DNA of 64,000 bases from Paramesorhizobium deserti (lineage in GTDB: Bacteria > Pseudomonadota > Alphaproteobacteria > Rhizobiales > Rhizobiaceae): the NCBI RefSeq assembly GCF_001558695.1, contig NZ_LNTU01000001.1:806001-870000 (forward strand). Reading direction: 5' to 3'. Both the position numbers and the translations under genes were made by a program. This document shows positions 11,994 through 56,397 of the stretch, piece after piece. A model generated the notes under the pieces. That model worked only from the letters and a program-made list of their open reading frames with translations. It was not told the origin of the DNA and made no database searches. Within the stretch, counting starts at the first letter, position 1. The number at the start of each line of letters is the position of its first letter.

Positions 11994-12887
11994 ATGAGCA
12001 CATTGCTTGGAATTTCCCGGCAAATCATTAATGATGCGGGCATGTCGAGCATCGAAACACCTGCGGCCCTCTTTACCTCGCCCGACAGCCCCGGCGTTCT
12101 CGGGCGCCTGGGCTCGCTAGAAGTCCGCCTTGCCCGGACGGCGGCGGAAATTGCCGCCGCGCAGGAATTGCGTTTCAGGATATTCTTCGACGAATTGGGC
12201 GCAATGCAGGAGAATGCGGCGATCCTGGAAGAGCGCGATGCGGACCGCTTCGATGCCGCCTGCGATCATCTCCTCGTCTATGACACCGCCATCGCCGAGC
12301 CGGAACACCGGCAGATCGTCGGCACCTACCGGCTGCTGCGCGGCGAAATGGCGCGTGAGGCCCACGGCTTCTACTCGGCCGGCGAATATGACGTCGACCG
12401 GCTGACGCTCGCCAAGCCTGATCTCCATTTCCTCGAGCTCGGCCGCTCCTGCGTCAAGCCGGAATACCGCTCGAAGCGAACGGTGGAGCTGTTGTGGCAG
12501 GGCATATGGGCCTATTGCCGCCGTCACCGCATCGACGTGATGTTCGGCTGCGCGTCGTTCCCGGGCGCCATTCCCGCCGCGCACGCGCTCGCCCTGTCGT
12601 TCCTGCATCACAATTGCCGCGCGGACGCGGATTGGGACGTGCGGGCGCTGCCGCAACGTTATCAGCCGATGGATCTGATGCCCCGGGAAGCGATCAACCC
12701 CAAGGTGGCGCTGTTCTCCATGCCGCCGCTGATCAAGGGCTATCTCAGGCTGGGCGCGATGATCGGCGATGGCGCAGTGGTCGACCAGGCCTTCGGCACG
12801 ACGGATGTGTTCATCATCCTGCCGGTCTCGCACATCTCGACCCGCTACATCACCTATTACGGCGCGGAAGCGGACCGGTTTATGTGA
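11994..12887 (+). CDS. olsB: L-ornithine N-alpha-acyltransferase OlsB
   Basis: OlsB transfers a 3-hydroxyacyl group from acyl-ACP to ornithine, giving lyso-ornithine lipid, the first step to phosphorus-free ornithine membrane lipids. The 297-residue protein has the GNAT-like fold of this family: VRLARTAAEIAAAQELRFRIFF near residue 45, VGTYRLLR, then the long conserved block FLELGRSCVKPEYRSKRTVELLWQG and FGCASFPG. Placement beside mutS and the malic enzyme gene matches S. meliloti, where olsB was defined. No olsA follows, as in S. meliloti, where olsA lies elsewhere. Start ATG 11994 has GGAGAAG 7 bp upstream. Regulation by phosphate is suggested by the Pho-box-like repeat. Confidence 0.88.
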   Translation: MSTLLGISRQIINDAGMSSIETPAALFTSPDSPGVLGRLGSLEVRLARTAAEIAAAQELRFRIFFDELGAMQENAAILEERDADRFDAACDHLLVYDTAIAEPEHRQIVGTYRLLRGEMAREAHGFYSAGEYDVDRLTLAKPDLHFLELGRSCVKPEYRSKRTVELLWQGIWAYCRRHRIDVMFGCASFPGAIPAAHALALSFLHHNCRADADWDVRALPQRYQPMDLMPREAINPKVALFSMPPLIKGYLRLGAMIGDGAVVDQAFGTTDVFIILPVSHISTRYITYYGAEADRFM

Positions 12888-12962
12888 ATAAGGGAATAGG
12901 GGAGTGTGTTGGAGCAAACATACTCCCCTACTCACTTATTCCCCTATTCCCTTACTCCCTTT
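12886..12962. repeat. Convergent-junction hairpin element A (olsB/mutS)
   Basis: A purine-rich left arm beginning at the olsB stop (AATAAGGGAATAGGGGAGTG) faces a pyrimidine-rich right arm; the inner 24 bp of the arms match at 21 positions and enclose a short GGAGC-containing loop. Both arms are built of GGGAATA/GGGAGTA units. The right arm reads on the minus strand through the last codons and TAA of mutS. It is probably a bidirectional terminator. Related elements occur at 25832, 27242 and 56329, all between convergent genes. Confidence 0.8.
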
Positions 12963-21025: not shown

Positions 21026-21058
21026 AATTGGTTCATGTTTGAATGGAATCGCTAGGCG

Positions 21059-21332
21059 CCCCCCTCTGCCCTGCCGGGCATCTTCCCGTCCTCCCGTCGT
21101 CATCCTCGGGCTTGACCCGAGGATCCACGGCAAGGGGGCGCTGGCCTTCCCGCTGCCTCAGCGCGTTCCAGCAGGCGCGAACTGCATTCGTTCTTGGAAC
21201 GATATCCCGCTCCGTGATTCACGATCCCGTCGCAGATGATAATATCGTTTCTGCCCCCTTTGCCGTGGATCCTCGGGTCAAGCCCGAGGATGACGACGGG
21301 AGGGAGGAGATGCCCGGCAGGGCAGAGGGGGG
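21059..21332. repeat. Large inverted repeat of RIME/Bru-RS-like palindromic units
   Basis: The glnD-murJ gap holds two arms of about 80 bp (21059-21139 and 21253-21332) that are nearly perfect reverse complements, separated by about 113 bp of unique sequence. Each arm combines CCCCTCTGCCCTGCCGGGCA with a palindromic CCTCGGGCTTGACCCGAGG and a shared end. The first unit recurs at 24535 and 38864. Units of this kind are widespread intergenic mosaic repeats in Rhizobiales (RIME, Bru-RS); assignment to a named family is from memory. No gene is seen in the gap. Confidence 0.8.
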
Positions 21333-21377
21333 TGCTGTCCCGCCAGCGTCTCCGCTTAAAAACAAAAAGATTGCATC

Positions 21378-25831: not shown

Positions 25832-25908
25832 CAAGGGGAGTAGGGGAATAAGGGAGTATGTTTTGGCTCCCACATATTCCCCTACTCCCTTAATCCCCTA
25901 TTCCCTTA
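25832..25908. repeat. Convergent-junction hairpin element B (nfu/ldt)
   Basis: It starts 5 bp after the nfu stop with AAGGGGAGTAGGGGAATAAG and, across a short GGCTCC-containing loop, returns with the pyrimidine-rich arm. The arms pair imperfectly but over about 25 bp. On the minus strand the element provides the TAA stop of the L,D-transpeptidase gene (25906-25908). Same unit grammar as elements A, C and D. Confidence 0.78.
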
Positions 25909-26523
25909 CTTCACGATCACCTTCGCGCCGACCTCGACACGATTGTAGAGGTCCATGATGTCCTGGTTCAGGAGGCGGATGCAACCTGACGACATCGCCT
26001 TGCCGATCGACCACCATTCGGGCGTGCCGTGCAGGCGGTAGCCCGTGTCGCGGCCGCCCTTGTAGAGATAGAGAGCGCGGGCGCCCAGCGGGTTCTGCAG
26101 CCCCGGTCCCATGCCGCCGCGATAGACTGCCAGTTCCGGCCGGCGCCTGATCATCGGCTCGGGCGGCGTCCAGGTCGGCCATTCGCGCTTCATCGCGATG
26201 CGCGCCGTGCCCGACCATTCGAAGCCCTGCTTGCCGACGCCGATGCCATAGCGCATGGCCTTTCCGTCGGGCATGACGAAATAGAGGAATTTGTCCGTGG
26301 TATCGACGATAACCGTACCCGGCGCTTCCCGGGTTTCGTAACTCACGATCTGGCGGCGATACTGGGCAGGAACCTTGGCCACCGGAATGGCGGGAAGTTT
26401 ATAGCCCGCATCCGTCACTGAGGCATACGAAGCGGTGTGAACGGGTCCCCCGATCGTCGAGCAACCGGCAAGGGCGGTTGCGGCAACCACCCCGAACGCC
26501 ATCAGCAACGGCTTGATATTCAT
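25906..26523 (-). CDS. L,D-transpeptidase (YkuD family) lipoprotein
   Basis: YkuD enzymes form 3-3 cross-links in peptidoglycan or anchor outer-membrane proteins to it; in polar-growing Rhizobiales they are numerous. The 205-residue protein starts with a lipoprotein signal (ATALAGC, lipid Cys21). The catalytic centre is HGTPEWWSIGKAMSSGCIRL with nucleophile Cys181; the residue two before Cys is Ser where many family members have His (SHGC), a variant I believe is common in this subgroup. It lies alone on the minus strand. A perfect TTAA-N7-TTAA site lies about 77-91 bp upstream of its start, which points to CtrA control. Confidence 0.9.
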   Translation of the reverse strand: MNIKPLLMAFGVVAATALAGCSTIGGPVHTASYASVTDAGYKLPAIPVAKVPAQYRRQIVSYETREAPGTVIVDTTDKFLYFVMPDGKAMRYGIGVGKQGFEWSGTARIAMKREWPTWTPPEPMIRRRPELAVYRGGMGPGLQNPLGARALYLYKGGRDTGYRLHGTPEWWSIGKAMSSGCIRLLNQDIMDLYNRVEVGAKVIVK

Positions 26524-48404: not shown

Positions 48405-48599
48405 GGAGCAAGACTTAAAACAAACCGCCGGGAATTGGAATGAAGTCTCTGTCAGGAGGCTGAACGATCCACGCCAAAGTGCGTGCAGCAAAAAAGTGCG
48501 TGGTAGGAATTGCCGGGGATTTCAACATCACGCTTTTGTTACAAATATGTAATGTTTCGTGCCCTTGAATCGCCACGTTCCTCTCGCCAAATCATAACC

Positions 48600-48752
48600 G
48601 TCGACAACACGTCGATATCCGGTCTTCTGGCCCGTCCCCCGCTGGATTCCGGATCGGGCGGCAGCCTCACATCCCCCCTCTCCGGGCTGCCGCTTCATTA
48701 TAATGATCTGGCCGCTGCGGTACCCCCCTCACCGCAGCGGTCAAGTCTTTTT
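48600..48752 (+). ncRNA. Probable AbcR/alpha-r15-type trans-acting small RNA
   Basis: A non-coding segment divergent from polA that folds into consecutive hairpins and ends in a textbook terminator. ATCCGG (48617-48622) pairs with CCGGAT (48649-48654); GCGGCAGCC (48658-48666) pairs perfectly with GGCTGCCGC (48685-48693) and shows the loop TCACATCCCCCCTCTCCG; CCGCTGCGG (48712-48720) pairs with CCGCAGCGG (48732-48740) with the loop TACCCCCCTCA, followed by TTTTT at 48748-48752. C-rich single-stranded loops that mimic anti-Shine-Dalgarno sequence are the hallmark of AbcR sRNAs, which in several Rhizobiales lie next to polA and repress ABC-transporter mRNAs with Hfq. The 5' end is uncertain; a TTGAAT lies at 48565. 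Confidence 0.55.
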
Positions 48753-54063: not shown

Positions 54064-56328
54064 ATGGCTTCAGGCGGAGACAGGGGCAAGCGCATCGAAC
54101 CTTCCTTCGGTGATGATAGCCGCAGGACACGGGACGATGATCTGCGCGTCGACGAAAACGACCGCGCCGCACCCGCGCCGGCACGCCGCAAGTCCAAATC
54201 CGCAAAGACCGGATCGAAACGAGACCGCAGGAATTCCGGCCGCGGCCAGAGGCGCGGCTTTTTCGGGCTTCTGCGCCGTATGGTCTACTGGTCACTGGTT
54301 CTGGGGCTGTGGGGCGGCATCGCCCTTGGCGGGATCGTCATCTATTTCGCGGCGCAGATGCCGCAGACCACCACCTGGACCATTCCCGACAGGCCGCCCA
54401 ACGTCAAGATCGTCGACGTCGGCGGCAATCTCATCGCCAATCGCGGGACGACGGGCGGCGAGGCGGTCGGCCTTCACGACATGTCGCCCTATATCCCCCA
54501 GGCGGTCATCGCCATCGAGGACCGGCGCTTCTATTCGCATTTCGGCGTAGACCCGATCGGCCTCGCCCGCGCGATCATTACCAACATCACGAGCGGACGC
54601 ATGGTGCAGGGTGGCTCGACGCTGACGCAGCAGCTCGCGAAGAACCTGTTCCTGACGCCTGAGAGAACCATCGAGCGCAAGGTCCAGGAAGTGCTGCTGG
54701 CGCTATGGCTGGAGCACAAATATTCCAAGGACCAGATACTCGAAATGTATCTGAACCGGGTCTATCTCGGATCCGGCGCTTACGGCGTCGCCGCAGCCTC
54801 GCGGCGTTATTTCGACAAGCCCGCGCGCGACGTGAACCTGATGGAGGCTGCAACGCTGGCGGGGCTGCTGAAGGCGCCTTCACGGCTTTCGCCGGCACGC
54901 GATCCGGAAGCCGCGTCGGATCGGGCGAAGCTGGTGCTCAACGCCATGCGCGAGCAGGGCATGATCCAGGACAGCGAACTGGCCGTCGCCATGAGCGAAC
55001 CGCCGACACGCGCCGCCGCCTATTGGTCGGGCTCTGAAAACTATGTCGCGGACCAGGTGATGCGGGAACTGCCGGCGTTGATCGGCGAAACGAAGAGCGA
55101 CGTGATCGTCGACACCACGATCGACCTGCATCTGCAGAAGATCGGCGAAGAATCAATCCGTGATCTCATCTCCGCCAATGGCAAGAAGATGAATGTCTCA
55201 CAAGGCGCGCTGGTCTCCATCGACGGGACTGGCGCGGTGCGCGCCATGATCGGCGGCTATGATTATGCCAACAGCCAGTTCGACCGCGCCACCGAAGCCA
55301 AGCGCCAGCCGGGATCGACCTTCAAGCCCTTCGTCTATCTCTCCGCGCTCGAACAGGGCCGCACGCCGGATTCGGTGCGTAACGACGCGCCTGTCAAGAT
55401 CGGCAAGTGGACGCCCGGCAACTACAACGGCAAATATTTCGGCCCGGTGACGCTTGCGACCGCGCTCTCGCACTCGCTCAACTCCGTCGCCGCCCAGCTC
55501 GTCATGGAAGTCGGCCCGCAAACCGTGGTCGATACGGCCCATCGCCTCGGCATCCAGTCGAAGCTGACGGCCAATGCCTCCCTGGCGCTCGGCACCTCGG
55601 AGGTGACGCTGCTCGAGCTGACCGATGCCTTTACGCCCTTCGCCAATGGCGGCTACACGGCGCCGGTGCACATCATCAAGCGCGTGACGGATTCGAACGG
55701 CAAGGTGCTCTATGAGAACACCCAAAGCGGCGGCGAACGCGTGATCGACCCACGGAATGTCGGCATGATGAACGCCATGCTGCGCCAGACCGTGGAAGAC
55801 GGAACGGCAAAGAGCGGCAAATTCGGCTGGCCGGCGGCCGGCAAAACCGGCACCAGCCAGAACTTCCGCGATGCCTGGTTCATCGGCTATACGGCCAATC
55901 TCACCACCGGGGTCTGGTTCGGCAATGACGACGGAAAGCCGATGAAGCATGTCAGCGGCGGCTCGCTGCCGGTCAAGGCATGGAAGGAATTCATGGTCGC
56001 GGCCCACAAGGGCGTGCCGGTCGCCGAACTCCCCGGCAATTACCAGATCGAGAATGTGCTTCCGGGCGGCAGTGACGAACTGCCCGATTCCAATGCGCCC
56101 TCACCTTACGACCCGAACAATCCGGCCGGCGGCATGCCCATGGCGAACGAGGATGACGGCTATTGGCCGCCTGCGCCCGATGCGGCGCGAACCGGCTCGA
56201 CGCGGATGATCGAAAGCGCGCCCGTCGCCTCGCGCGGCCCGGTCCCGCCCGCCGATGTCGGCGGCGGACGCCAGTCCGGCGGCAAGACGACAACGCTGCT
56301 CGATCTCATCATGGGGAATGCGCAGTAG
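54064..56328 (+). CDS. Class A penicillin-binding protein (PBP1 family)
   Basis: A bifunctional peptidoglycan glycosyltransferase/transpeptidase of 754 residues. A basic cytoplasmic tail of about 65 residues precedes one membrane helix (about 70-97). The GT51 domain shows EDRRFYSHFGVD (catalytic Glu152), QGGSTLTQQLAKN and RKVQEVLLALWLE. The transpeptidase has STFK with nucleophile Ser418, SLNS and KTGTSQNF. The C-terminus is Pro/Gly-rich. ATG 54064 is chosen over a TTG four codons earlier. In polar-growing Rhizobiales a class A PBP of this kind is the main elongation enzyme. A perfect CtrA-type site precedes it, and its stop abuts junction element D. Confidence 0.95.
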   Translation: MASGGDRGKRIEPSFGDDSRRTRDDDLRVDENDRAAPAPARRKSKSAKTGSKRDRRNSGRGQRRGFFGLLRRMVYWSLVLGLWGGIALGGIVIYFAAQMPQTTTWTIPDRPPNVKIVDVGGNLIANRGTTGGEAVGLHDMSPYIPQAVIAIEDRRFYSHFGVDPIGLARAIITNITSGRMVQGGSTLTQQLAKNLFLTPERTIERKVQEVLLALWLEHKYSKDQILEMYLNRVYLGSGAYGVAAASRRYFDKPARDVNLMEAATLAGLLKAPSRLSPARDPEAASDRAKLVLNAMREQGMIQDSELAVAMSEPPTRAAAYWSGSENYVADQVMRELPALIGETKSDVIVDTTIDLHLQKIGEESIRDLISANGKKMNVSQGALVSIDGTGAVRAMIGGYDYANSQFDRATEAKRQPGSTFKPFVYLSALEQGRTPDSVRNDAPVKIGKWTPGNYNGKYFGPVTLATALSHSLNSVAAQLVMEVGPQTVVDTAHRLGIQSKLTANASLALGTSEVTLLELTDAFTPFANGGYTAPVHIIKRVTDSNGKVLYENTQSGGERVIDPRNVGMMNAMLRQTVEDGTAKSGKFGWPAAGKTGTSQNFRDAWFIGYTANLTTGVWFGNDDGKPMKHVSGGSLPVKAWKEFMVAAHKGVPVAELPGNYQIENVLPGGSDELPDSNAPSPYDPNNPAGGMPMANEDDGYWPPAPDAARTGSTRMIESAPVASRGPVPPADVGGGRQSGGKTTTLLDLIMGNAQ

Positions 56329-56397
56329 GAGTGAGTAGGGAATAGTGAGTAGTGAGATAGTAGAGGGCTTCTACTCCCTACCTCACTTATCTCACTC
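56329..56397. repeat. Convergent-junction hairpin element D (PBP/glpK)
   Basis: Directly after the PBP stop comes GAGTGAGTAGGGAATAGTGA, then a run of GTGAGTA/GTGAGATA units, and after GGGCTT the pyrimidine-rich return arm ending CTCACTTATCTCACTC. Units are GTGAGTA/GGGAATA, a diverged version of elements A-C. On the minus strand it supplies the TGA stop of glpK (56392-56394, GAGTGA). Confidence 0.75.

Follow-up and report, generated by a model that had tools for sequence, protein, structure and literature searches.

Gene-end hairpins of Paramesorhizobium deserti as probable ORF-less members of a dispersed palindrome family that also houses S23/IVP genes

Four hairpins made of inverted arrays of 7-8-base units lie between protein genes in the 64-kb stretch of the Paramesorhizobium deserti genome analysed here (the whole of which we call the window), and the reading that we favour, with a probability of about 0.6, is that they are copies without an open reading frame (ORF) of a dispersed family of hairpins resembling the intervening sequences (IVS) of 23S rRNA, with the S23/IVP protein (PF05635) as its likely partner. 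Hairpins of the same array kind are dispersed through the genome at gene 3' ends, some copies of that kind enclose an IVP gene, and IVP genes and arrays co-occur among genomes of the family; that IVP acts on the hairpins is what we infer from this. The pairing of the palindromes with S23/IVP genes is a deeper result than the earlier observation from which the work departed, a first-pass annotation of the window that had described the hairpins as mobile or expanding bidirectional terminators doubling as stop-codon cassettes, a reading that is partly supported.

The positions of the hairpins are collected in Table 1. Elements 1-3 are arrays of RGGGARTA octamers, elements 1 and 2 being about 80 bases long, and element 4, with the units GTGAGTA, GGGAATA and GTGAGATA, is a heptamer relative of them. 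The consensus of eleven copies reads [RGGGARTA]n TGTT ... ACA [TAYTCCCY]m, and the folds predicted for the four window elements range from -25 to -58 kcal/mol. The first-pass annotation had placed four such hairpins at these sites and none elsewhere in the window; sequence, inverted repeats and folds bear this out, as does a covariance model made from eleven copies and applied to window and genome, which found the same four elements in the window and nothing further below an E value of 0.4. Matches to the octamer pattern (up to 3 mismatches) numbered 20 in the window against a mean of 3.4 after shuffling, and 18 of the 20 fell within the four elements, the remaining two being at 21081 and 51781. 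None of the four copies contains an ORF and all lie outside rRNA; at Rfam gathering thresholds, the elements had no match in a search of the window and locus L173. The window also holds a dispersed repeat of about 280 bases (~21056-21343) that has inverted ends of about 80 bases, a MITE-like look and many copies in the P. deserti genome and that of its relative G001, and at which the alignments to all five relatives break; at 48599-48749 (+) lies the alphaproteobacterial sRNA ar7 (Rfam RF02342, 89.5 bits).

Table 1. Hairpin elements of the window and the two IVP-bearing copies of the same genome
Feature	Position	Strand	Neighbouring genes	Basis
Element 1, octamer hairpin	12884..12962	none	gene ending 12887 (+); mutS (name from the first-pass annotation) ending 12952 (-)	inverted repeats, fold, covariance model, relatives
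Element 2, octamer hairpin	25834..25913	none		inverted repeats, fold, covariance model, relatives
Element 3, octamer hairpin with long loop	27238..27362	none		inverted repeats, fold, covariance model, relatives
Element 4, heptamer-type hairpin	56327..56396	none	convergent; genes ending 56328 (+) and 56392 (-)	inverted repeats, fold, covariance model, relative L031
IVP copy, octamer arms	C1:493775-494257 (outside the window)			
IVP copy, heptamer arms	C23:594110-594424 (outside the window)			

Genome-wide, the exact two-unit pattern GGGARTARGGGARTA occurred 164 times (77+87) and the reversed pattern 8 times (7+1). At E <= 0.01 the covariance model matched 111 times, both strands counted, and these matches, mostly 75-105 bases long, merged into 57 elements; since scoring covered 150 of 594 first-look candidates, and since the set lacks both element 4 and the copy with an IVP gene at C1:493775, this figure is a lower bound and the true number is larger. 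With genes called by a codon-score caller made for this analysis, the 57 elements were at 27 convergent, 26 tandem and 4 divergent junctions, compared to 55, 283 and 77, respectively, among the remaining junctions of the same DNA, which amounts to an excess at convergent junctions (odds ratio 5.9, p 1.4e-8) and a deficit at divergent ones (p 0.04). A rule by which such elements lie between convergent genes only, as all four in the window do, is therefore rejected as an effect of the window, even though the preference for such junctions stands, and what the sites share is a gene 3' end. For 76 of the 80 gene ends that face an element the distance to the stop codon was measurable: 44 stops fell inside the array, a figure to which fuzzy unit matching contributes by at times counting coding sequence as a unit, 23 lay within 30 nt before it and 9 further away. 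Stop positions peaked at +1 (12), +9 (12), +17 (4) and +25 (4), which correspond to the TAA/TAG of consecutive units. The stems are stable in the predicted folds, and the U runs behind them look short by eye in most copies. Four elements of the genome (C3:7593, C3:13171, C23:462633 and C23:468671) have a common loop core close to GGACCTCCTCGGAGGAATCAG and, judging from that core, are a subfamily of common origin.

Outside the window, and so beyond what the first-pass annotation could see, the loop of the octamer-armed copy at C1:493775 measures about 390 bases and contains a complete ORF for a PF05635 (23S_rRNA_IVP) protein (E 8.6e-36); O. teleogrylli and B. pseudintermedia likewise have this kind of ORF framed by octamer arms. 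A search of 18 genome entries (17 distinct genomes, G272 and G422 being the same) found IVP in 11 entries, namely the five g1 genomes with octamers (G000, which is P. deserti, to G004), G021, G147, G216 and G272/G422 of group g17, and M. ciceri. In the same search IVP was not found in G005, G319, G358, G389, B. pituitosa, B. rhizosphaerae or M. waimense, and the exact core GGGAGTATGTTTTGG is absent from the three g17 genomes among these (G319, G358 and G389). Across the family Rhizobiaceae, IVP (E <= 1e-8) was present in 114 of 394 genomes. We examined 44 IVP loci, a non-random sample composed of the loci of the 17-genome search and 28 further best-scoring family loci after the duplicate L255 had been dropped. 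In 42 of the 44 the gene was flanked by inverted arms whose score exceeded that of each of 200 shuffles, compared to 1 of 174 shifted control windows; the two misses were L287, whose ORF has internal stops, and L291. All 42 armed loci were purine-first, the best arm period (4-12 tested) was 7 in 31 and 8 in 11 of them, and the 5' arm carried stops in three frames in 36. The unit types of IVP copies comprised GGGGAGTA, AGGGAGTA, GGGCAGTA, CAGTGAG, GTGAATG and GTGAGTA/GTGAGATA. GTGAATG-armed IVP genes lie ahead of an apparent nuoD (by eye) in G004 (L253) and G001 (L262), whereas the arms differ in the IVP genes listed for P. deserti, G002 and G003, and IVP is absent from G005.

The IVP protein is basic (pI 9.3; median 9.2, range 5.9-10.1, over 39 loci), and we know of no catalytic domain in it. 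A solved structure that it matches, 2GSC (E 1.5e-24), is reported to be a pentamer of four-helix bundles (PMC4990558). The inner edge of the arms is marked by a boundary motif, AACATAYTSCC in the right arm or GGSARTATGT in the left, at least one of which was found in 26 of the 57 elements and 3 times in the 508 kb outside them, both being absent from the other 31. Among ten IVP loci scanned, the right motif coincided with the IVP stop codon in five (L251, L256, L257, L258 and L263). This sharing of the boundary motif with the IVP stop region suggests an origin of the copies without an ORF from those with IVP, perhaps as miniature elements arise from transposons.

We next considered whether arrays and IVP genes occur in the same genomes. 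Counted as three units of a single pattern that leaves octamers outside its scope, heptamer arrays were present in 97 of the 114 IVP-positive genomes and in 50 of the 280 IVP-negative ones, and at least 3 matches were found in 88 and 38 of them, respectively; some of the 26 IVP-positive genomes with fewer than 3 heptamer matches hold octamers instead. In tests that take phylogeny into account to the level of the genus, 31 genera contained both kinds of genome; the IVP-positive genomes had the higher mean count in 26 of these genera and the lower in 2, with ties in 3 (sign test, p 3e-6). Within the genus of P. deserti, G005 has neither IVP nor octamers and 2 heptamer matches. The identity of IVP proteins correlated with the similarity of their units (r 0.66, 39 loci, p 2e-4 by permutation), also among pairs without upstream similarity (r 0.35, 499 of 741 pairs, p 2e-4 by permutation); six of 45 loci were omitted here (the duplicate L255, the misses L287 and L291, and L265, L271 and L289). 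Arrays can nevertheless exist without IVP, as the 38 IVP-negative genomes with at least 3 matches and M. waimense, an exception with octamers and no IVP, demonstrate; G415, without IVP, has 127 heptamer array matches, and G035 has a few octamers and no IVP. The idea that octamer elements go one to one with an IVP gene in octamer arms finds no support in G002 and G003, which have octamers, yet only heptamer arms around IVP. Octamers themselves are patchily spread among genomes. The exact core GGGAGTATGTTTTGG occurred in 5 of 394 family genomes, those of P. deserti and four members of g17, and two-unit octamer matches occurred in 10 of the 22 genomes reached via named loci: they were abundant in B. 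pseudintermedia (58+55), O. teleogrylli (60+74), M. ciceri (134+53), RMAD-H1 (27+34) and M. waimense (19+15), sparse in five further genomes, and not found in B. pituitosa, O. chromiisoli or B. rhizosphaerae.

Twelve elements were set against five genomes of the same genus, and the 11 with alignable relatives (all except C1:171545) were usable. An array of this class, counted by eye, was present in 23 of 53 comparable junctions of the relatives; in the rest its place was taken by a different palindrome, a minimal hairpin, a terminator of the ordinary kind or a long stretch of unrelated sequence, or there was next to nothing. G005 had a full array at none of the 11 junctions, and at C23:462633 it has three bases separating the two stop codons between which the P. 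deserti element lies. At C1:178891 and C1:1014307 the junctions of G002 and G005 are nearly empty, and no target duplication was seen by eye at C1:178891, the one site inspected for it. At the site of element 2, G002, G004 and G005 have a GGCCGC stem followed by T4-T5, and P. deserti and G001 the array, whereas the site of element 3 holds a hairpin of some kind in all five relatives, with differing units and sizes, G004 having nine and six units there. No insertion event was observed in this comparison; the empty or differently filled junctions and the variable number of units uphold the view of the first-pass annotation that the elements are mobile or expanding. Relatives also hold other, unrelated-looking palindromes at the mutS junction (L216, L217 and L219) and at that of C1:180850 (L222 and L224), and with several hairpin families at the same junctions, these gene ends are shared landing places.

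The comparison with relatives also bears on the claim that the elements provide the stop codons of flanking genes. The stop was at the conserved position in 15 of the 17 gene ends compared, which speaks against element-supplied stops as a general rule. Of the two exceptions, mutS ends within the array of element 1, its product exceeding that of four relatives by one residue and that of G002 by two, and the left gene at C23:461389 is 1-3 residues longer than in four relatives. On the other side of element 1, the TGA at 12885-12887 is native, with TGA in four of the five relatives and TAA in the fifth; the left gene of element 3 stops in the first units, with the C-terminus D[IMV]GE in P. deserti, G002, G004 and G005 and DVGE in G003; and the left TAG of element 4 is present by eye in L031, the nearest named relative. 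What survives of the claim is the case of mutS, the number of stops inside arrays and the fact that the purine arm has stops in all frames; at the 15 conserved stops, the element begins at the stop or just behind it.

IVP genes with inverted arms also occur beyond the family. A tblastn search found IVP-like genes in 30 plasmid records, and 16 of these loci were analysed, 13 being cyanobacterial and the others from Gemmatirosa, Azospirillum and Riemerella. Inverted arms, roughly judged against 200 shuffles, were present in 14 of the 16, including L306, with a pyrimidine-first arm and a score below a control window of its own locus, and L308, whose score is also below a control window; the misses were L299 (29 vs 30) and L305. 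The Azospirillum locus L303 lies inside 23S rRNA (by eye) and has short-unit arms. Three of the 16 plasmid genes (L299, L304 and L306) are within CRISPR-Cas operons; their neighbours are cas10 and a Cmr3-family gene in Picosynechococcus, and cas6 and cas4 in Anabaena and Pseudanabaena.

Hairpins that are dispersed at gene ends, and for which a partner protein encoded within such a repeat has been proposed, are familiar from the REP/RAYT system. Our elements resemble it in their dispersal at gene ends and in the candidate partner gene within the repeat, but the gene in the loop is here of the PF05635 family and in REP/RAYT a Y1 transposase. A second point of comparison is Bru-RS, reportedly described by Halling and Bricker in 1994. 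In the accessible parts of the sources, Bru-RS are palindromic dispersed repeats of Brucella, 103-106 bases long (PMC2267715, PMC10800456), and the primers of the Brucella octamer loci used in strain typing contain the core GGGAGTATGTTTTGG (PMC1513380). As far as these descriptions go, Bru-RS and the octamer VNTR loci share with our elements that they are palindromic, dispersed, intergenic octamer arrays with this core, which is exact in element 2, on the opposite strand in element 3, a variant in element 1 and absent from the heptamer element 4. Unlike Bru-RS, however, the P. deserti copies are mostly about 80 bases long and have heptamer relatives in the same genome. The available portions of PMC2267715, PMC1513380, PMC10800456 and PMC2266754 contain no mention of an IVP gene alongside Bru-RS. 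The IVS of 23S rRNA are alike in being stem-loops, and the loop of some copies, in the family as a whole and not in the four of the window, holds a PF05635 gene; tandem GACAGAT heptamers precede the S23 ORF in the Coxiella IVS (PMC4990558), and L303 offers short-unit arms within 23S rRNA. The window copies differ in lacking an ORF and in lying at the ends of protein genes and not in 23S rRNA. S23 proteins are reported to be of unknown function, and how rRNA intervening sequences arose is reported to be unclear (PMC4990558); PF05635 is said to resemble Avd, a retroelement accessory protein essential for retrohoming in diversity-generating retroelements (PMC10053308). Among the literature matches listed, no open title or abstract linked IVP genes with dispersed 7-8-base palindromes, a link that may be in print elsewhere.

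Three other explanations of the hairpins were weighed. IVP could be a passenger, a small gene that inserts into arrays that spread or grow by other means, much as IS711 is reported to find hot spots in Bru-RS (available part of PMC2266754), and the 50 IVP-negative genomes with at least one array match fit such an account; we nonetheless consider it unlikely, since arms flank IVP at 42 of 44 rhizobial and 14 of 16 plasmid loci, the 7-8-base architecture is constant while the rhizobial units differ, and both the co-occurrence within genera and the correlation of protein with unit argue for a closer tie. Somewhat less probable again is that the hairpins are immobile host terminators grown in place by replication slippage, to which IVP is unrelated. 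The hairpins of differing units and sizes in all five relatives at the site of element 3, the position of element 2 where three relatives have an intrinsic terminator and the variable unit number fit growth in place, but it accounts poorly for the nearly empty junctions of G002 and G005 at C1:178891 and C1:1014307, the common boundary motif, the loop core common to 4 of 57 elements and the patchy presence between close species.

Closest to the first-pass annotation is the idea that the elements are selected stop-codon cassettes, kept for supplying stops and termination to convergent genes. Stops inside arrays (44 of 76 measured), three-frame stops in 36 of 42 5' arms of IVP copies and the end of mutS speak for it; since 15 of the 17 stops compared are ancestral in position and 30 of 57 elements lie away from convergent junctions, we regard it as very improbable.

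Under the favoured reading, that of an IVS-like hairpin family with IVP as its partner, an element is a pair of inverted arrays, built of purine-rich units of 7 or 8 bases, around a short loop, in which a few copies hold a complete S23/IVP gene for a four-helix-bundle protein. This basic, Avd-related protein would bind the nucleic acid of the hairpin and promote its copying or retention, and a reverse-transcribed RNA intermediate in the copying would be a guess. Copies would persist mainly behind stop codons because no gene is broken there, and the purine arm would stop translation in every frame. In the transcript, the hairpin may act as a two-way terminator or as a stabiliser of 3' ends, and a role as bidirectional terminator is plausible given the position at gene ends and the one swap with an ordinary terminator, at element 2. 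The 23S rRNA IVS that carry S23 genes would belong to this class of element too, with rRNA as their site. More tentatively, and at somewhat less than even odds, S23/IVP may be the protein dedicated to a widespread class of mobile hairpins that would take in rRNA IVS, Bru-RS-like octamer palindromes and the heptamer palindromes of rhizobia and cyanobacteria; its kinship with Avd suggests that a borrowed reverse transcriptase copies the elements from an RNA intermediate, with landing at transcript 3' ends and in rRNA hairpins. On this view, units of 7 or 8 bases, which are not multiples of 3 and have built-in stops, would make arrays safe behind any frame.

The link to S23/IVP would tie the rRNA IVS and the Brucella octamer loci to one class of element with recognisable units and a candidate protein partner, and the repeats described here may connect to the rRNA intervening sequences of many bacteria. 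If this is true, many of the 7-8-base arrays found behind genes would be parts of such elements and not products of chance slippage.
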